Assembly: GCF_025642135.1 (NCBI RefSeq)
Contig: NZ_CP106793.1
Location: 4,158,001 to 4,222,000, forward strand
Direction: 5' to 3'
Source of the DNA: Streptomyces cynarae
GTDB lineage: Bacteria > Actinomycetota > Actinomycetes > Streptomycetales > Streptomycetaceae
DNA length: 64,000 nucleotides
The position numbers and the translations under genes were made by a program. Position 1 is the first letter of the stretch; every line of letters starts with the position of its first letter. Shown here in pieces: positions 42,807-51,880 of the stretch. The notes beneath the pieces are model-generated. The model searched no databases, was not told the origin of the DNA, and saw only the letters and a list, made by a program, of their open reading frames with translations.

Positions 42807-42920
42807 TCAGCTGCGGCTGAGCCGCCCCTCCGTACATCCGGAGACACCCTGGTGGGTCACAGCGGTCATATGAGCAGCCAGGCTCACCAGGGAACGGGCG
42901 TGTGCGCACCCCATGCAGAC

Positions 42921-43027
42921 GGGACACCGCCCAGGTAGGGACCACATACAGGCGGGGCACCGCCCGGGTGGCGACCACACAGGCGGGACACCGCCCGAGT
43001 AGCGACCACATACAGGCGGTACACGCC
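42921..43027. repeat. Tandem 31-33-bp repeat
   Basis: Three consecutive units (42921-42953, 42954-42984, 42985-43017), each GGGxCACCGCCCxxGTxGxGACCACA(TA)CAGGC, plus a 10-bp partial copy, followed at 43052 by a run of nine G residues. It fills most of the gap between the hemerythrin and double-kinase genes (convergent). Confidence 0.85.
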
Positions 43028-43135
43028 ACGGAGCTGCACCTCTGCGATCGCGGGGGGGGGCGGCGGCAACCACGTGGTCCTGCTCCAGGCGGCATCCCTC
43101 GCCCCCTCCCCCGTGCAGAAGCGCCCGGCGTCAGG

Positions 43136-45433
43136 TCAGACGTCCACCCAGAGCCCGGCCGTCCGCCCGCGTCCGTGGTCACCATGCGGGAGTGCACGGG
43201 CAAGATGAGGGTTCGCCGTCAGTTTGGCGGGAAGCCCCAGCGCGGCCGTGGCTTGGAACAGGGTCATCGCGTACGTGTCCACCGCCCGGCGGACGTTGGG
43301 GGCGTCCAGGCCGTCGCCGGTCACGAGACGGTCGAGATCGACGTACGCCGAGCGGACGACCTCCATCCACCGGTAGACCCGCCAGTCGTCCTGCCAGCCC
43401 TTGGTGCAGTCCTCCGGCAGCCGTTCGGACCAGCGTGCGAACAGCCGCTCCCGGATCTCGGGACGCGTGGGCGTGAGGTGCATGTGGCGTACCAGGTCGT
43501 ACAGGGCGTCCCCGACCATCGCCATCTCCCAGTCGATGAGCGTCAGCCCGCCGGTCGGCCGGCGCACCAGGTTCCACGGGTTGAGATCGCCGTGCAGGAG
43601 GACGGGCCGGCGCGGGACCAGGGTGTGGCGGTCGAGGATCTCGCCCAGCCGGTGACTGCTGGGCAGTCCCAGTTCGCGTGCCAGATCCGCCGTCTCCTTG
43701 GGCAGTTCGCCCACCAGGCGGACCAGTTCGTCGCACAGGCCCTTGTAGAAGTCCTGCCGGAACACGGCGCGACCGAAGTCGGTGCAGTCGACGCAGGTCA
43801 GCGCGTTCAGCTGGTCCACCAGGTCGTCCGCCTCGTACGGCCGGAGCCCGTCCACGGGGTGGTCGGGCGGGCGGACGTCATCCGGTCCCTCGTAAGAGTG
43901 AATGGTGAACGGCTCGTTCAGCCCGCTGGTGCCCAGGGCCAGCACCTTGGGAGCCCGTACACCGGCCTTCGACCGCTCGATCGCCCTCAGAACGGCGTGC
44001 TCGTTGAGGAACCTGCGCTCCCGGGGGTTCCCCGCGCCGACCTTCCGGCGGACCATGACGGGACACGGCACTCCCGGCACCCGAACCGCCGTGTTGAGGT
44101 GTGCCGCCCCCTTGAACACCCGGTCCGCCGAAGCGGCACCCTCCTCGAACAGCGCCTTGCTCACCGCCGCCGCCGGGAACCCCGGGAGCAGAGGCACCCG
44201 CTCGTCCCGCTGCCAGACGATCTCCATGGCGGAGCGCTCACGGGCCTTGCCCCCGTGGGACTCTCGCCAGCGGAAGAGGATGCGCTCGATCTCGCTCTCA
44301 TCCAACACATGGCCCAGCCGCAACGGTTCTTCGGCCGCCAGCAGCGCCCGGTGCACCTCCTGCGTCGCGGCATCGAGGTCACGCTGGTCGAAGGAGTCGC
44401 CGAGCGATGTGGCCGCGCGCATCACGTCGGGATAGACGGACTGGGCCCGTTCGAAGGCGACGTAGTGCTTCAGATCCCGGTCGAGGCCGTTGACGGCCTT
44501 GGGGCGCCGTCTGCGCATGGCCTGGTGCCACGCCTCCACGACCTCGGGCCACTGGTAGTCGGGGTACTGCATCCGCACCAGGTGGGTGGCGAGGTCGTGC
44601 AGCGGGTCACCGAATCCGGCCAGTTCCCAGTCGACACAGATCAGGGGCGGTTTGCCGCGGTAGGACACGATCACGTTGTCCCGGTGCATATCCGTGTGGA
44701 GCAGGCTGAAGGGGCGGCGGACAAGGGCCGGGACCCGCTCCGCGAAGCGCACCATCGCGTCCTCGGGGATGCCCAGCATCGCGAACAGCCCTCCGAACTC
44801 GGCCCAGTTCGGACGCCTGATCTGCTCCTCCGCCGCGAACGCCAGCGCCCGCAGAAAGGCACCGCTGTCCCGGCTCGAACGGGGCCAGGACACCGGGAGC
44901 GGGGGGAGGTGCTGCCTGGCCACCTGCGTCATGTCCGCCAGGAGACCCGCGAGGTCGGCGATCAGTACCGAGTCCACCGGCTGTCCCTTGGGGCAGATGC
45001 TGGACAGCGGCACCCCCTCCACATAGCTCAGGACGGTGATGTCGCCGCACTTGGCCAGACAGCGGGGGACGTACGGGAGAACACCGCTGATCGTGTTGAG
45101 GATCTCCGCCTCGTCGTGCCATGTCCTGATGACCACGGACAGCGCCGAGGGGATCCGCTGCCGCACCGTGACACGTTCGCCGTCCTTGCCGGCCACAAGC
45201 CGGGAGTCCTGCTCGGTGAGCGGCCGCACCATGTAGTTGACGTTGTGATGCCCCCGTTCGAAGGAGCCCAGCGCCCTGGCGTAACGCAGGAACCTCTCGA
45301 AGTCGTCGTCCGCCGCAGGCTCCAGAGCGCGGTTGCTAGGCAATGGCGGACCGCCCAACGATGACTCCTGAATGGCTGTGCGGCGCGTGCGATGGTCATG
45401 CGCCGCGAACAAGGTGGGCACACGGTAGGGCAT
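43136..45433 (-). CDS. Protein with two APH-type kinase domains
   Basis: A ~765-aa cytoplasmic protein with two phosphotransferase (aminoglycoside/choline-kinase fold) domains in tandem. Domain 1 (about 60-330) has the catalytic loop LLHTDMHRDNVIV and metal motif ICVDWELAGFGDPLHDLA. Domain 2 (about 415-740) has LLHGDLNPWNLV and LTLIDWEMAMVGDALYDL. Both have intact catalytic Asp and DFD-like Asp. ATG 45433 is a guess: the frame is open to 45505 and no strong ribosome site is seen. It is the first of a run of accessory genes with GntR-type regulators. Substrate unknown; a small hydroxylated molecule is likely from the family. Confidence 0.75.
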   Translation of the reverse strand: MPYRVPTLFAAHDHRTRRTAIQESSLGGPPLPSNRALEPAADDDFERFLRYARALGSFERGHHNVNYMVRPLTEQDSRLVAGKDGERVTVRQRIPSALSVVIRTWHDEAEILNTISGVLPYVPRCLAKCGDITVLSYVEGVPLSSICPKGQPVDSVLIADLAGLLADMTQVARQHLPPLPVSWPRSSRDSGAFLRALAFAAEEQIRRPNWAEFGGLFAMLGIPEDAMVRFAERVPALVRRPFSLLHTDMHRDNVIVSYRGKPPLICVDWELAGFGDPLHDLATHLVRMQYPDYQWPEVVEAWHQAMRRRRPKAVNGLDRDLKHYVAFERAQSVYPDVMRAATSLGDSFDQRDLDAATQEVHRALLAAEEPLRLGHVLDESEIERILFRWRESHGGKARERSAMEIVWQRDERVPLLPGFPAAAVSKALFEEGAASADRVFKGAAHLNTAVRVPGVPCPVMVRRKVGAGNPRERRFLNEHAVLRAIERSKAGVRAPKVLALGTSGLNEPFTIHSYEGPDDVRPPDHPVDGLRPYEADDLVDQLNALTCVDCTDFGRAVFRQDFYKGLCDELVRLVGELPKETADLARELGLPSSHRLGEILDRHTLVPRRPVLLHGDLNPWNLVRRPTGGLTLIDWEMAMVGDALYDLVRHMHLTPTRPEIRERLFARWSERLPEDCTKGWQDDWRVYRWMEVVRSAYVDLDRLVTGDGLDAPNVRRAVDTYAMTLFQATAALGLPAKLTANPHLARALPHGDHGRGRTAGLWVDV

Positions 45434-45538
45434 CTCGACGCAGCGGAACGTTTGACTCCAGCATTCGGTACGCATTTGAGCGCATGCGGCACTCAGAAGC
45501 AGCACGCCGTCGGAAATACCACGGATGCCGGCTCCGTG

Positions 45539-46432
45539 TCAGGCGGCCTCGGCGAGCAGGTCCCACACGGAGTTGAACCACGACTGCATGCTGTCGACGA
45601 AGGTGGAGCCGGGCGAGTTCGGGTCGCCGTCCCTGATGTGGTGCGTGAGGGTGGCACCGAGCCCGATCACGTCGAGCGCCTCGATCTCCCGGCCGCTGTC
45701 CAGGACGATGGGACGCTCGTCCACCACGTAGGGGCCGAACAACGCCTCGGACTCGTTGAAGAGGTAGACCTTGAAGGCCGGCGGCAGTGCCACGTGGCGG
45801 ACCTGCAGGTCGAAGGACTCGACGAGCTTGGACGCCTGGAGGCTCGCGAGCACCCGCGGCAGCGAGGCCATGGCGTCCCGGGCGATCCCGAGGTGGCGCT
45901 CCCTGACCGTCCCGGCCTCGCCCGGGTTCATGGCCCGGGGATACGGAAGCTCCAGATCCTCCGACGGCAGTAGAAGCCGTACGCTCACGCGGGGCGGCGA
46001 GGGGCGGGACTCGGCCCTGCGCACTCGGACCCATTCGGCCTGGAGCATCTGCAGATGCATCCCGAGCGATTCCGCGGTCAGGGTGTAGACGTCGAGCGCG
46101 ACCTCCTGAAGATCGAATGCCTGCTCGATGAACGACCCCACGGTCACGGCGCCGCGCCGATGCACGCCCCGGGGCGTCGAGGATTCGATGCGCTGACTCC
46201 GGATCACCCGCGACCCGCTGCCGCGCCGGGACTCGATCCAGCCTTCGCTGGTGAGCTCCCTGATCACCCGCTGCACGGTGTCGCGGGACACGCCGAACTC
46301 CTCGGCCAGGGCCCGTTGAGGAGGCAGCGTGCCGTTCACCGGGTACGTCCCGTCGGCTATGCGGACGCGCAGGGCTGCCGCGACACGGTCGAACTCCGTG
46401 CCGCCACCGTCGCCGACCCGTTCTGCGTCCAC
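45539..46432 (-). CDS. GntR-type regulator 1 with novel C-terminal domain
   Basis: A 297-aa regulator. The winged helix (about 10-80) has GTLPPQRALAEEFGVSRDTV and LTSEGWIESRRGSGSRV. The C-terminal ~200 residues are not UTRA or FCD; they contain VSVRLLLPSEDLELPYP, FKVYLFNESEALFGPYVV and a terminal FVDSMQSWFNSVWDLL, a pattern shared with the two regulators at 47.5 and 48.8 kb and loosely like pseudo-PLD domains. GTG 46432 gives a compact N-terminus. It diverges from micropeptide gene 1 with an 18-bp palindrome between. Confidence 0.85.
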   Translation of the reverse strand: MDAERVGDGGGTEFDRVAAALRVRIADGTYPVNGTLPPQRALAEEFGVSRDTVQRVIRELTSEGWIESRRGSGSRVIRSQRIESSTPRGVHRRGAVTVGSFIEQAFDLQEVALDVYTLTAESLGMHLQMLQAEWVRVRRAESRPSPPRVSVRLLLPSEDLELPYPRAMNPGEAGTVRERHLGIARDAMASLPRVLASLQASKLVESFDLQVRHVALPPAFKVYLFNESEALFGPYVVDERPIVLDSGREIEALDVIGLGATLTHHIRDGDPNSPGSTFVDSMQSWFNSVWDLLAEAA

Positions 46433-46545
46433 ACACCGACCGTACCTTCTCTGCCCGACAGCCAAACACTTTTCGGGCAGCCAGCAGTCCAACTGCCCTA
46501 CTGGTTAAGGGATCAAGCAGGCAGGGCACTTCCAATTCAGAGCAA

Positions 46546-46563
46546 CCAGTCCAATTGGACTGG
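46546..46563. promoter_or_regulatory. Operator-like palindrome of regulator 1
   Basis: Perfect 18-bp palindrome CCAGTCCAATTGGACTGG, between regulator 1 and micropeptide 1. Related half-sites (CCAACTGCCCTACTGG) lie at about 46489-46504. Confidence 0.75.
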
Positions 46564-46619
46564 AAGTTGATCGGTTCACGGAAGCTCCATGGGGGCTTCA
46601 CCGGAAACGGAAGGGCCGG

Positions 46620-46811
46620 GTGGGGGAAATGATCCAGTCGGAGGCGCTCGCCACCGCAGCCGAGTTCGTCCTGTCGATGCTGGCCCAGTCGGAGTACGGA
46701 CTACTGGGAGCCGTCCTCGTGTCGCTCGTCTTCATGGGTGTCCGAGCGGGCCGGCCGCACCTCGCGCTGGGAGCCGCGGTGGTGTTCGCCGTCCTGATGG
46801 CTCAGGCCTGA
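46620..46811 (+). CDS. Micropeptide 1, two-helix membrane protein
   Basis: A 63-aa hydrophobic protein with helices near 10-20 (weak), 26-41 (YGLLGAVLVSLVFMGV) and 47-63 (LALGAAVVFAVLMAQA). GTG 46620 has GGAAGG 5 nt upstream; ATG 46629 is an alternative. Its sequence YGLLG...GVRAGRP...GAAVVFAVLMAQ aligns with micropeptide 2 at 48.6 kb. It is divergent from regulator 1 and overlaps the HAD gene's 3' end by 10 bp on the other strand. Function unknown. Confidence 0.75.
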   Translation: MGEMIQSEALATAAEFVLSMLAQSEYGLLGAVLVSLVFMGVRAGRPHLALGAAVVFAVLMAQA

Positions 46812-47539
46812 CCGCGCAGGATCGACAGCAGCGGTTCGAGCGAGTTGACGACGATGTCGGCGCCCACGCTCCTCAGGCGCTTCTCCTTGTCCTCGTTGCG
46901 CGCGTAGCCGAGGAACGCGACCCCGGCGTCCTGAGCGGCGAGGAAGTCCGAAGGGGCGTCGCCGATCATCACAGACAGGGAGCGGTCCGCCCCCATCGCG
47001 TTCAGGGCCTGGTTCAGGCAGTGCGGATGGGGTTTGAGCAGATCGAGGTCGGCCGTGCGGCCGAAGACGTAAGGGGCGAAGCAGGAGACCAGCCCTCGGG
47101 TCGCCAGGTAGCCGGCCGCCACGCGCGCGGAGTTGTTGGTCGCTATGGCGAGCTGGCCGCCCACGGTGGTCCATGTGCGGATCAGGGGGTCGGCGTACGG
47201 GGTCGGCATGGCCGACGCGACCGCCTTCAGCTCCTGCTGGGTGAGCCTCTCCTCCAGTTCGGTCACCAGGTCGCTCTGCGGGTGCCGCCGGTGGATGGCC
47301 TCCAGGACGTAGTGCGGATCCGGGTGGACCCGTTCCTCCTCGGTCAGCAGGCCCCGCAGCCCCCGGCTCTCGAGCCACTCCACGAGTTGGCCTGCCACAT
47401 GCTCGGCGGCGTGCCCAGCGAAGAGCCGGCAGATCGGGCCGTCGAAGTCGAAGAGCACAAAGCGCGCGCCGGTGATCAGTTCGCGCAGTTTTCCTGTCTC
47501 TGCCGTCACCGCATCAGTCTGCTTCGCATCAGAAGTCAC
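46802..47539 (-). CDS. HAD-family phosphatase
   Basis: A 245-aa HAD hydrolase (Gph/phosphoglycolate-phosphatase-like). Motif I is VLFDFDGPICRLFAGHA (catalytic Asp pair), motif II is LAIATNNSARVAAG, motif III Lys is in DLDLLKPHPHC, motif IV is VMIGDAPSDFLAAQDAGV. The cap lies at about 55-140. GTG 47539 shares one base with the TAG of regulator 2 (TAGTG), so it is translationally coupled to it. It may act on a phosphorylated product of the nearby double kinase; this is inference. Confidence 0.85.
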   Translation of the reverse strand: MTSDAKQTDAVTAETGKLRELITGARFVLFDFDGPICRLFAGHAAEHVAGQLVEWLESRGLRGLLTEEERVHPDPHYVLEAIHRRHPQSDLVTELEERLTQQELKAVASAMPTPYADPLIRTWTTVGGQLAIATNNSARVAAGYLATRGLVSCFAPYVFGRTADLDLLKPHPHCLNQALNAMGADRSLSVMIGDAPSDFLAAQDAGVAFLGYARNEDKEKRLRSVGADIVVNSLEPLLSILRGQA

Positions 47540-48393
47540 TAGGAGAGTGTCAGGTCCGTGGTGATGGTTTCCCAGAGGGCGTCGAACCACTTCTGGGACT
47601 CTTCCACAAAGGCGTCGTCCCGTCGCCCCGCCCGGCGTTCGAAGGAGAAGAGGAGGGAGGCGGCGCCGAGCGTGTCGTACATCTCGAGGGTCTGGCTGTT
47701 CACCTCCTCCTCGCGCCTGGTGAGCATGTAGTACGCCATCAGGGCCTCGGCACCGTTGAGGAGGTAGAGCTTCACCGGCGGGGTGAAGGGCAGGGCCCGG
47801 AAGGTCACACGGACGTCGATGCCGTGTGACGAGCGCAGGGCCTGGAGGTTGTGGCGCAGCACATGGCCCTGGGCGTTGCGCTGTTCGAGCCAGCGCTGGT
47901 GGACCGGGTCCTCGTTGTCACCGGGGCTGTCGACGGAGATCGGGAACGCCAGGTTGATCTTCCGGGAGGGCAGCAGGATCCGCACGTCGATCGACTGCGG
48001 ACGGATGCGGCCCTCGTGGATCAGCCGGAGCGGTTCGCCCAGCGCCAGCATCAGGGTCTCGGCGGTCAGGCAGGCAGCGTCGATCCGCACGTTGGGCGCG
48101 GCGAACGCCTCCGCGAGCCTCGGCGCCAGCGCCACCATCGTCGGCTGCGGTTCGTCGCTGACCGGCGGGGGCTCGGCGATACGGGGCGGGCTGCCCCGGC
48201 TGACGCTGCTGAGCAGGCCGTCGTCCTGGAGGACGCGCAGCGCCTGGCGGACCGTGCCCCGCTCCACACCGAACTCCTCGGCCAGTTCGGCCTGGGTCGG
48301 CAGACGCTCGCCCGGCTTCAGCTCGCCGGCGCGGATCCGGGTCCGCAACGTGTCGGCGATCTCCTGGGGCGAGGACCTTCTGCTGCCGTTCAC
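47539..48393 (-). CDS. GntR-type regulator 2 with novel C-terminal domain
   Basis: A 284-aa paralogue of regulators 1 and 3. The winged helix contains RLPTQAELAEEFGVERGTVRQALRVL; the C-terminal domain has DVRILLPSRKINLAFPISVD, PVKLYLLNGAEALMAYYMLTRREEE and FVEESQKWFDALWETI. GTG 48393 has AGGAGA 8 nt upstream; the frame is open to 48420. It is coupled to the HAD gene downstream and diverges from micropeptide 2 across 253 bp that hold an AGTTGG/CCAACT operator-like site. Confidence 0.88.
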   Translation of the reverse strand: MNGSRRSSPQEIADTLRTRIRAGELKPGERLPTQAELAEEFGVERGTVRQALRVLQDDGLLSSVSRGSPPRIAEPPPVSDEPQPTMVALAPRLAEAFAAPNVRIDAACLTAETLMLALGEPLRLIHEGRIRPQSIDVRILLPSRKINLAFPISVDSPGDNEDPVHQRWLEQRNAQGHVLRHNLQALRSSHGIDVRVTFRALPFTPPVKLYLLNGAEALMAYYMLTRREEEVNSQTLEMYDTLGAASLLFSFERRAGRRDDAFVEESQKWFDALWETITTDLTLS

Positions 48394-48501
48394 TGCGACG
48401 TTCTCCTGGGTCACGACCAAACGCTACAACCCCCGTCCATCTACCGGGAGTTGTTTGAATGTTGTTTATAGGTACCAACCAACTGGGGATAACTTCAGTG
48501 T

Positions 48502-48528
48502 AGTTGGTTGCCAACTCGGAAGAGTTGG
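48502..48528. promoter_or_regulatory. Operator-like site of regulator 2
   Basis: Inverted repeat AGTTGG-TTG-CCAACT (48502-48516), then 6 bp and another AGTTGG (48523-48528). A further CCAACT lies at 48479. The same arrangement occurs upstream of regulator 3. Confidence 0.75.
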
Positions 48529-48646
48529 CGGAGGGTGTCCCTCCTCTCGCACATTATCCGCAGGTAGTCCCCAGATGCAGACCGCTCAATCCCCTCTGTC
48601 CCGCCACCCGGTCCCCCGAGGTCCGCCCCTGGAAAGAGGTCCCGCC

Positions 48647-48835
48647 ATGCCCGCACTCGCCCTTCTCTCCGCCCTCTTCGTCGTCGGATTCGACCAGTTC
48701 GTCCAGTGGAAGTACGGGACGATCGGCATCATCGGGCTGACGCTGCTCACGATCGGGATCAAGGCCAACAGCCCCGCCTGCAGCTCCATAGGGGCCGTCG
48801 TCCTCGCCCTGCTGGTCGCCCAGCCAGCACTCTGA
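48647..48835 (+). CDS. Micropeptide 2, two-helix membrane protein
   Basis: A 62-aa hydrophobic protein (MPALALLSALFVVGFDQFVQ; then WKYGTIGIIGLTLLTIGIKA and SIGAVVLALLVAQPAL). ATG 48647 follows AAAGAGG. It aligns with micropeptide 1: YG-x2-G, G(I/V)(K/R)A-x2-P and GA(A/V)V-x-A-x-L-x-AQ are shared. Divergent from regulator 2 and convergent with regulator 3 (5-bp gap). Function unknown; membrane insertion is predicted from hydrophobicity. Confidence 0.75.
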   Translation: MPALALLSALFVVGFDQFVQWKYGTIGIIGLTLLTIGIKANSPACSSIGAVVLALLVAQPAL

Positions 48836-48840
48836 CCAGG

Positions 48841-49764
48841 TCAGACGCCCAGATCCAGCTCAGAGCTGATGGTCTCCCACAGGGCGTTGAACCACAGGTG
48901 CGACTGCTCCACGAACGTCGTGTCCCGCAGCCCGGCCCCCTGCGCGAACGGGAACAGCATCGACCGGGTCCCCTCGGCGTCGTACAGCTGAAGGTGCTCC
49001 TGGTCGATCTCCGCCTCGCGCCGGGTCAGCGTGTAGTACGCGAAGAGCGCCTCGGCGCCGTTGATCAGGTACAGCTTGACCGGCGGCGTGAAGGGCAGGG
49101 CGCGGAAGGAGACGTGCGCGTCGATGCCGTGGGTGCTGCGCAGCGCCAGCAGGTTGTGTCTGAGGACCCGGCCCTGGGCATTGCGCTGGGCCAGCCAGCG
49201 GCGGTGCAGGCGGACGCCGTCCGTGCCCTCCACCGGTGTGGGGAACGCCAGGTCGATACGGCCGCTGGGCAGCAGTACGCGTACGTCGACCTTGGCCGGT
49301 TCCATGCGCCCCGCGTGAATCTCGCGCAACGGCGCGCTCATCGCGGGCGTCAGCGACACCGCCGTCAGGCACAGGGCGTCGATCTCCACGTGCGGCGCCG
49401 CGAAGGCGGCGGATATCCGCGGGGCCAGCGCCACCATCGTGGGCTGCGGCGGGGCCTGGGGCCCGGCCGACGCCCTCCCCGCGGGGTGCGCCACGGTCGC
49501 CGGGCTGCCCTTGGAGACGTTGGTGAGCAGTTGCTCGGACTGCAGGATGCGCAGCGCCTGGCGCACGGCTCCCCGCTCCACGCCGAACTCGTCCGCCAGC
49601 TTGGCCTGCGTGGGCATGCGCTGGCCCGGTCGCAGCACCCCCGACCTGATCCGGCTGCGCAGCTCGTCGGCCACCTCGTGGTGCGATCTCTGTGGCCGTT
49701 GTGACTTCTTCCGCCCGCTCGCGGCAGCGTGTTCCGGCTCCACGATCGAACCGTACAACTTCAC
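48841..49764 (-). CDS. GntR-type regulator 3 with novel C-terminal domain
   Basis: A 307-aa close paralogue of regulator 2: RMPTQAKLADEFGVERGAVRQALRIL in the winged helix and PVKLYLINGAEALFAYYTLTRREAE and FVEQSHLWFNALWETI in the C-terminal domain. GTG 49764 has GGAAGA 5 nt upstream. A perfect 19-bp palindrome lies 65 bp upstream. Unlike regulators 1 and 2 it has no recognisable divergent micropeptide. It probably arose by tandem duplication. Confidence 0.88.
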   Translation of the reverse strand: MKLYGSIVEPEHAAASGRKKSQRPQRSHHEVADELRSRIRSGVLRPGQRMPTQAKLADEFGVERGAVRQALRILQSEQLLTNVSKGSPATVAHPAGRASAGPQAPPQPTMVALAPRISAAFAAPHVEIDALCLTAVSLTPAMSAPLREIHAGRMEPAKVDVRVLLPSGRIDLAFPTPVEGTDGVRLHRRWLAQRNAQGRVLRHNLLALRSTHGIDAHVSFRALPFTPPVKLYLINGAEALFAYYTLTRREAEIDQEHLQLYDAEGTRSMLFPFAQGAGLRDTTFVEQSHLWFNALWETISSELDLGV

Positions 49765-49828
49765 GCCATCTTCCGTCAGTTCAGAAGAAGGTGGTTATGA
49801 GACGACTCCAAGCGGAGATAAGTCAGGT

Positions 49829-49857
49829 GGAGTTGGTCACCAACTCCGGCAAAGTTG
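49829..49857. promoter_or_regulatory. Operator-like site of regulator 3
   Basis: Perfect palindrome GGAGTTGGT-C-ACCAACTCC (49829-49847), followed after 5 bp by AGTTG (49853-49857), the same layout as at regulator 2. Confidence 0.8.
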
Positions 49858-49899
49858 AACGAGCTTGAGTGCTCCTGACCGACATGGTCGTACGAGTGA

Positions 49900-49934
49900 C
49901 CGGGCTCCCTTCCGGAGGGGAGCCGGGAGCCCGG
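49900..49934. terminator. Hairpin between regulator 3 and the Eis-like gene
   Basis: Stem CCGGGCTCCC / GGGAGCCCGG with an inner loop that can pair further; about 95 bp past the Eis-like stop on the minus strand. The rest of 49935-50028 shows nothing I can support. Confidence 0.6.
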
Positions 49935-50028
49935 CGTGCACCACAACCACAACTGAATCGCTACGGATGAACAAGCACAGCAGTCACCACCCGCACGGAA
50001 GGAGCACCACCCGAGAGCCCCGTGAGGC

Positions 50029-51285
50029 TCAGAAGATGTCCGGGCACCACGGTCGCCTGGACGTACGCAGCAGGGCGTCGGCGACGGAGGCGGCGCCCTT
50101 TTGCTGTTCCCGTACCCGCCCGAGCGCCGCGAGCCGCACCGCGGACTCGTCCCCCAGCCACAGGGTCGCCAACTCGCCCACCGGCAGGGTCAGCTCGGGC
50201 TCCTGGTCGGTGCGCACGCACTCGGCGCCGTCCGGCCCGGCCTGAAGCCGGTAGCGGCCGCCGGCGAGTCCGGCCTCGTCGACCACCTCCAGGACGAGCG
50301 TGCCGGACGTCGCGTAGGTGCGTACCTCCAGGGCGCGTACGACGTCCAGGATCCGTACCCACAGCGTGTCCGCGTACGTGGTGAGGCGGGCCGCGCGCGG
50401 GTCGGGGAGGAGGTGGGGCAGCAGGTCGTCCGGGGCGCGGTTGCCGGACTTCACGGTGGTGACCCAGTCGAGCGAGCACAGGTAGTGCCACAGGACGCGT
50501 TCGGCGCTGGGGCTGGTCGTGATCAGGCTCTTCACGGTCGCGGTCTGCAGCGGCCGCTTGCCGTCGCCCCAGTGGTCGTCGCTCACATAGGCGGCGAGAC
50601 CGTCGATCTCCCCGGAGGCGGAGCGGTGGACGGCGTAGAAGGGTTCCGTCCACTCGTCGTCGTCGAAGCGCAGGGCGCCCGTGTTGAGCTGCCACCAGCG
50701 GTCGCCGCGGGAGATCGCGCCGGGCACGGCGCGACGGAAGCGCTCGTGCAGCTCGGGGCCGAGTTTGCGGACCTCGTCCGCGTCCACGAGATCTATACGA
50801 CCGTCGTCGAGGACCGGGCGGTGGCGCTCGAGGCCGGTGCGGGGGACGTCGATGGTCCACTCGGCGGTGTGGGCGGCCGGGCCGAAGCCGTAACGGCCGT
50901 AGATGGGGTATTCGGCGGCGGTGAGGGTGGCGACGACGTCGCCGCGTTCCTTCGCCGCGGCGAGGTCGAGGGCCATCATGCGCGTCAGGAGGCCGCGGCG
51001 GCGGTGGGTGGCGGTGACGGAGACGTTGGTGATGGCGTCGGCGGCCACCAGTGCGCCGCCGACGGCGGTCAGCTCCTGCGGGAAGGAGCGGAAGGTGGCG
51101 ACACAGCGGGCGTCGTCGAAGGCCGCGAGGGTGCGGGCGGGGGTGATGTTGCCGCCACGGACGGCGAGCTCCTGGTCGGAGACGTGGGGGGAACGGAGGA
51201 ACCCGGTGTGCAGGGCACGGATCCAGTCGGGGATCTCGGAGTCGGTGATGGGGCGTACGTCGAGGTCCTGAGGATGGCGGCTCAT
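50029..51285 (-). CDS. Eis-like GNAT N-acetyltransferase
   Basis: A 418-aa protein of the Eis family: N-terminal GNAT domain with acetyl-CoA motif [21 protein letters not shown], second GNAT-like domain, and C-terminal SCP2-like domain ([23 protein letters not shown]). It ends in Phe, whose carboxylate serves as the general acid/base in mycobacterial Eis; Tyr in [12 protein letters not shown] matches the catalytic Tyr region. Such enzymes acetylate amines on aminoglycosides or protein lysines. ATG 51285 is at the edge of a tandem-repeat array that forms its upstream region. Confidence 0.9.
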
Positions 51286-51344
51286 GGGGTCACGGTAGGA
51301 GGGCGGGGGTGGGGGTGTCGCGTGGATTTACGACTGCCCGCCGC

Positions 51345-51880
51345 CGGACCACGCTCGTCGCCCCCGGACCCGGCTCATGTCGCTCCGAATCCCGCTCGTC
51401 ACCCCCGGACCACGCTCGTCAGCCCCGGATCCTGCTCATCGCTCCGGATCCCACTGGTCACACCAGGACCACTCATCACATCCCGGATCTCGCTGATCGC
51501 TCCGATCCAGCTGGTCACAGGCGGCCCACGCTAGGTCCCAACCGGATCCCGCTGATCGCTCCGACCCCACTGGTCACAGACGGACCACGCTCGTCCCCAC
51601 CGGACCCCACTCATCGCTCCCGACCACGCTGGTCACATCCGGACCACGCTCCTCCCCCGAACCCCACTCATCGCTCCCGACCACGCTGGTCACATCCGGA
51701 CCACGCTCCTCCCCCCGAACCCCACTCATCGCTCCCGACCACGCTCGTCACATCCGGACCACGCTCCTCCCCCCGAACCCCACTTATCGCTCCCGACCAC
51801 GCTGGTCACATCCGGACCACGCTCGTCGCCCCTCGATCCCGCTCATCGCTCCCGACCACGCTCGTCGCCCTCCCCGCAGA
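51345..51880. repeat. Intergenic tandem-repeat array
   Basis: Four nearly identical 57-58-bp units start at 51605, 51662, 51720 and 51778, each beginning CCCCACTCATCGCTCCCGAC. Each holds GACCACGCTGGTC (or GACCACGCTCGTC) and CGGACCACGCT. A partial fifth unit follows at 51837 and diverged copies run back to about 51345. GACCA-CGC-TGGTC can form small hairpins. Frames through it are not credible genes. The array separates the asparaginase stop (51896) from the Eis-like start. Confidence 0.9.

Follow-up and report, generated by a model that had tools for sequence, protein, structure and literature searches.

In a 64-kb window of the Streptomyces cynarae genome (C1:4158001-4222000 of 9.36 Mb; positions below are counted within this window), three paralogous genes for GntR-type regulators (reg1, reg2, and reg3) stand beside genes for two short hydrophobic peptides (pep1 and pep2), a HAD phosphatase, and a two-domain APH-type kinase. 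We find that the core of this cluster is the already published dev sporulation locus of Streptomyces, to which we add mechanistic detail: where both are present, a dyad lies at a nearly fixed distance from the promoter-like site of the peptide gene. At this locus, DevA-type repressors acting locally probably gate the expression of membrane micropeptides by sporulation sigma factors. An earlier description made from the sequence of the window (the original prediction) had presented the cluster as a candidate new system. Most of its component observations are borne out below; its novelty, as far as the core is concerned, is not.

In Streptomyces coelicolor, the regulator gene devA is cotranscribed with a putative phosphatase gene, devB; devC encodes a divergent small protein of about 50 amino acids; and devE (SCO4188) is an adjacent paralogue of devA with 57.6% identity (PMC3187754). 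The window has the same order (a regulator and then a phosphatase/hydrolase gene, with a small gene running divergently and a paralogue of the regulator alongside), with 61% identity between reg2 and reg3. By this match, reg2, the HAD gene, pep2, and reg3 appear to be devA, devB, devC, and devE, respectively. The published 44-bp sequence of SCO4189p, a SigF/H/N-dependent promoter in an E. coli two-plasmid system (PMC8346170), has a counterpart upstream of pep2 in the window, with 34/44 identical positions, and upstream of the pep2 orthologue in one related locus (L106), with 44/44. Because of this match, and because SCO4189 is numbered between SCO4188 and SCO4190, we take pep2 to be SCO4189/devC. 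The probable DevA and DevE assignments draw on gene context, the level of reg2/reg3 identity, and the full agreement of L106 with SCO4189p.

The genes reg1 and pep1 and the double APH kinase gene extend the dev locus. The reg1 protein is 32% identical to reg2 and in this resembles DevF and DevG, extra copies in Streptomyces sviceus that are 31 to 33% identical to DevA (PMC3187754); DevA itself represents one of seven GntR subfamilies (PMC6608401). Relative to the accessible text of the 2011 dev paper (PMC3187754), the reg1/pep1 pair is an addition, and a term search of that text returned none of the words "kinase," "membrane," and "operator," so that the kinase and the promoter-dyad register are likewise added here. 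In the open-licence literature searched, which leaves most subscription journals outside, we found no report of the dyad register, the phospholipase D (PLD)-like fold described below, or the kinase link, and no paper joining a GntR regulator with a small membrane protein or with phospholipase D-like features.

We compared the window with 80 loci of relatives, the best 80 of 217 by pep2 similarity; pep2 is therefore present in them by construction, and several are truncated by contig ends. Their typical order is kinase, reg1, pep1, HAD, reg2, pep2, reg3, and a third peptide gene, pep3, with losses and extra copies. Over 81 loci (these 80 and the window), pep2 occurs in 81, pep3 in 53, and pep1 in 34. 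The original prediction had assigned a divergent peptide to two regulators; this holds for reg1 and reg2 in the window and fails as a limit, since reg3 has pep3 beside it in 53 of the 81 loci. In the accessible part of the dev paper, S. sviceus and S. coelicolor are the only species with a devC-like gene next to devE (PMC3187754), in contrast to the wider occurrence of pep3 seen here and its lack in the window.

The two peptides of the window are indeed related, with 38% identity over 40 residues (E = 4e-8), and neither has a significant match in Pfam or NCBIfam. We found 172 homologues of pep2, and the named organisms among the 120 listed are all Streptomyces. Median ratios of nonsynonymous to synonymous substitution rates (dN/dS) were 0.315 for pep2, 0.439 for pep3, and 0.63 for pep1, which supports purifying selection on the peptides. 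Hydropathy and a three-helix model of low confidence (predicted local distance difference test score of 65, predicted template-modelling score of 0.32) predict a membrane location. Alignment A1 includes one pep1 row.

Three whole-genome samples were drawn without selection for pep2 (61 genomes of the genus, 197 of the order, and 296 of the phylum); the first search pass scores only some candidates, and the counts may include misses. Among the 61 genus genomes, the peptide model gave 44 matches in 27 genomes and the reg2 C-terminal domain 83 matches in 36. Forty-three of the 44 peptides have a regulator match no farther than 1.5 kb away, and 42 are divergent from one, with 398 to 587 bp between the C-terminal domain and the peptide. 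Adjacency had been named beforehand as the check on the pairing, and this placement, with the 172 pep2 homologues, excludes chance. In the order, 104 genomes carry the peptide, all in one of 6 genera, and 137 carry the regulator domain, in 4 of the 6; with phylogeny ignored, the regulator is present in 104/104 peptide genomes, alone in 33, and absent together with the peptide in 60. In the phylum sample, peptide and regulator are carried by the same eight Streptomyces genomes, and the sole peptide match beyond the genus (E = 3e-4) was treated as spurious. Outside Streptomyces, that sample contains the regulator domain in one genome, G297, of the same class and another family. There, at locus L139, a DevA-like regulator is legible only as two overlapping open reading frames (ORFs) beside a DevB-like HAD gene; no peptide match was found in G297.

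The palindromes noted in the original prediction are real and conserved. The core GTTGG-N3-CCAAC is present in 64/80 reg2/pep2 regions and 52/53 reg3/pep3 regions, and its spacer is invariably 3 bp although 1 to 4 bp were permitted; shuffled sequences gave 0.1 and 0, respectively, and reversed or inverted-order controls gave 0. The reg1/pep1 regions carry a different core, CCAATTGG, in 32 of 33 cases. Upstream of the peptides, a SigB-type promoter pattern occurs in 51/80 (pep2), 42/53 (pep3), and 13/34 (pep1) loci, against shuffled means of 0.45, 0.2, and 0.1. These first shuffles preserve single-base content only; the later controls, a 2-mer block shuffle and reversed sequence, gave 0.85, 0.45, and 0.1 and 0 throughout, respectively. 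Where the promoter is followed by the dyad, the two stand in a nearly fixed register: the core starts 12 bp after the -10 hexamer in 46/48 pep2 and 41/42 pep3 regions, and CCAATTGG lies 21 bp after it in 12/13 pep1 regions. Dyads placed over the expected transcript start would suit repression of the peptide promoter.

These sites are rare elsewhere in the genome. The perfect palindrome CAGTCCAATTGGACTG occurs once in 9.36 Mb, and AGTTGG-N3-CCAACT (AGTTGGNNNCCAACT) has three exact copies, two of them at the dev locus. With up to one mismatch, AGTTGGNNNCCAACT matches 13 places (2 at the locus) versus 20 for a backward-read control, so only the three exact copies are meaningful. Five of the 11 off-locus places were examined: three lie under ORF candidates passing a base-composition filter, whereas no filter-passing ORF crosses the site at L151 (the third exact copy) or L154. 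Because the dyads are nearly confined to the locus, the regulators look local.

A further inverted repeat with AGTTGT-like half-sites (ACAAC...GTTGT) was seen near the reg2 start (48417-48455); its k-mers AAACAACT and ACAACTCC occur in 72/80 and 63/80 regions, respectively. This repeat might be a second, autoregulatory site.

All three regulators belong to the GntR superfamily, with PF00392 far above its cut-off in each; of the 65 regulators aligned, 61 also match it. This alignment (A3) combines the three proteins of the window with 11 from databases and 51 of the 55 regulators selected from the loci; the four omitted were two near-copies of window proteins, one contig-end fragment, and one HAD-looking protein. 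Pfam and NCBIfam matches to the three proteins are confined to the GntR head (best 25 per protein). As had been claimed for the C-terminal domain, neither UTRA nor FCD appears among the Pfam matches listed for the three (25 of 26, 23, and 5), and neither is one of the 25 commonest families, out of 120, matched by the 65 aligned regulators; this places the three in neither the HutC (UTRA) nor the FadR (FCD) subfamily. The C-terminal part has 2,814 homologues for reg2 and 159 for reg1. Structure prediction gave this part a PLD-like fold. A PDB profile search with the regulator family returned only DNA-binding heads and no PLD match among the best 60 of 88, so the PLD assignment comes from the predicted fold only. 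At the place where we take the HxKx4D site to lie, judged by topology, lysine is present in 65/65 aligned regulators, histidine in 1/65, and asparagine in place of aspartate in 60/65. With the HxKx4D motif not intact, the catalytic histidine nearly absent, and aspartate replaced, an active HKD-type enzyme is not expected; the domain is predicted to be a PLD-like fold lacking the catalytic histidine. The archaeal regulators TrmB and TrmBL2 also have a PLD-like domain, from which the dev regulators differ in their GntR-type head and an identity of about 10%; the phospholipase D superfamily nucleases Nuc, NucT, and Zucchini have the histidine and aspartate expected of HxKx4D that the dev regulators lack.

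The HAD gene (75/80 loci) is coupled to reg2 as originally proposed: it can start within the reg2 stop codon (TAGTG), and in 69/74 pairs the nearest in-frame HAD start gives exactly this one-base overlap. The kinase, of which the N-terminal part was found in 74/80 loci, has the two domains ascribed to it, with both catalytic sets (two HxD....N and two DWE motifs). A small molecule that these enzymes phosphorylate or dephosphorylate may be the effector of the regulators.

We propose that each regulator would act as a local repressor, its GntR head binding the dyad that lies just downstream of the promoter, of the SigB-family (SigF/H/N) type, from which the divergent micropeptide gene is read. 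Peptide synthesis would then require both an active sporulation sigma factor and release of the regulator. The same dyad, or a second site nearer the regulator start, may give rise to the known negative autoregulation of devA-devB (PMC3187754). The PLD-like domain, with its invariant lysine and missing catalytic histidine, would sense a ligand whose binding releases the DNA; how much of this (phosphorylated) ligand is present may depend on the conserved phosphatase and kinase; and the peptide's site of action would be the aerial-hypha or spore membrane. A more specific version is tentative and, taken whole, rather doubtful: the DevA-type regulators would be metabolite sensors, their catalytically dead PLD-like domain recognizing a phosphorylated metabolite or lipid head group whose level depends on DevB and the APH kinase; every regulator would release its own SigF/H/N-driven micropeptide; and the DevC-type peptides would themselves directly halt the extension of aerial hyphae or trigger septation.

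Several observations weigh against local repression of the peptides. The exact dyad core is missing from 16/80 pep2 regions, and the promoter pattern, devised after the sequences had been viewed, is met in only the fractions of loci given above. The 33 of 137 regulator-bearing genomes of the order with no peptide match mean that the peptide is not the sole regulator target, and pep3 was not found in the window, where a promoter-like site and dyad persist upstream of reg3. Finally, one dyad type is common to the reg2 and reg3 regions, although the 2011 paper makes the case that DevE has no action at the devA promoter (PMC3187754); cross-talk between DevE and DevA therefore deserves a retest.

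Some of these points would also be expected if the dyads served only autoregulation of the regulators and the micropeptides merely occupied the same intergenic region, free of regulator control. Negative autoregulation of devA (PMC3187754), the genomes with a regulator and no peptide, and the reg3 dyad kept beside no pep3 all agree with this explanation, which we nevertheless consider unlikely, since the dyads keep a fixed distance to the peptide promoter and the peptides occur only in regulator-bearing genomes. This last fact, and the position of a small hydrophobic peptide next to its proposed repressor, would also fit a toxin-antitoxin-like unit in which a toxic peptide is held down by its neighbor; that is very improbable given that regulators persist without the peptide, that the locus sits among ordinary genes at a conserved position of the chromosome, that the promoter is of the SigF/H/N type, and that PADLOC gives no match for the peptides, HAD, or kinase. 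A wholly new kinase-phosphatase-regulator signaling system, as first proposed, is hardly credible, for despite the conserved kinase and HAD and the lack of any listed Pfam/NCBIfam family for the C-terminal domain and peptides, the gene order, identity level, and SCO4189p match point to the published dev locus.

Table 1. Coordinates of dev cluster features in the window
Feature	Position	Strand	Remarks
Two-domain APH-type kinase	43136-45505	-	Pfam APH 1.6e-44, two stretches; coordinates of the longest ORF
reg1	45539-46435	-	Third DevA-type regulator, DevF/DevG-like; GntR head; listed ORF begins at TTG 46492
SigB-type promoter-like site before pep1	46503-46529	+	GGTTAA-N15-GGGCAC
Perfect palindrome CAGTCCAATTGGACTG, proposed reg1 operator	46547-46562	.	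One copy in genome
pep1	46629-46811	+	60-aa DevC-like putative membrane micropeptide; better start is ATG 46629
devB-like HAD phosphatase	46802-47539	-	Pfam Hydrolase 1.5e-13; start overlaps reg2 stop
reg2	47539-48420	-	DevA-type regulator; GntR head and predicted PLD-like C-terminal domain; gene context as devA
SigB-type promoter-like site before pep2	48464-48490	+	GTTTAT-N15-GGGGAT; corresponds to published SCO4189p
Dyad AGTTGG-TTG-CCAACT, proposed operator	48502-48516	.	Begins 12 bp past -10
pep2	48647-48835	+	62-aa micropeptide, taken as DevC (SCO4189)
reg3	48841-49764	-	DevE-type regulator; 61% identical to reg2
SigB-type promoter-like site before missing pep3	49793-49819	+	GGTTAT-N15-GGAGAT
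Dyad AGTTGG-TCA-CCAACT, proposed operator	49831-49845	.	One of the genome's three exact copies of AGTTGG-N3-CCAACT

The cluster is flanked by conserved chromosomal genes, for which reason we rejected integrated-plasmid transfer regulators; across the 80 loci the neighbors include GNAT (74/80), RsiG-like (67/80), and Tyr-deacylase (67/80) genes. A defense system was likewise rejected, the only PADLOC matches being weak helix-turn-helix matches in the regulators. A known structured RNA was dismissed as well, because Rfam gave 0 matches over 43000-50100. The RsiG-like gene (PF22802; 52985-53605) lies two genes past the GNAT neighbor; RsiG is a sporulation anti-sigma factor, so dev is close to another developmental gene. 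Two tandem arrays were also seen, one between the GNAT and L-asparaginase genes (51344-51866; 58-bp unit, 8.9 copies, 83% matches) and a short one downstream of the kinase gene (42908-43024; 33-bp unit, 3.6 copies, 82% matches).

Mutants in devA and devE are blocked at two different steps of sporulation, and according to the 2011 paper, the metabolites that DevA and DevE sense and their regulons were barely known (PMC3187754). The fixed promoter-dyad register suggests that a putative membrane micropeptide is a direct target of the regulators, and the promoter finding ties the dev genes to SigB-like sigma factors. Paralogous regulator-peptide pairs with two dyad types offer a natural experiment in operator divergence. 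Together, the exact sequences of the proposed operators and the predicted fold of the sensing domain make a poorly understood sporulation checkpoint testable.

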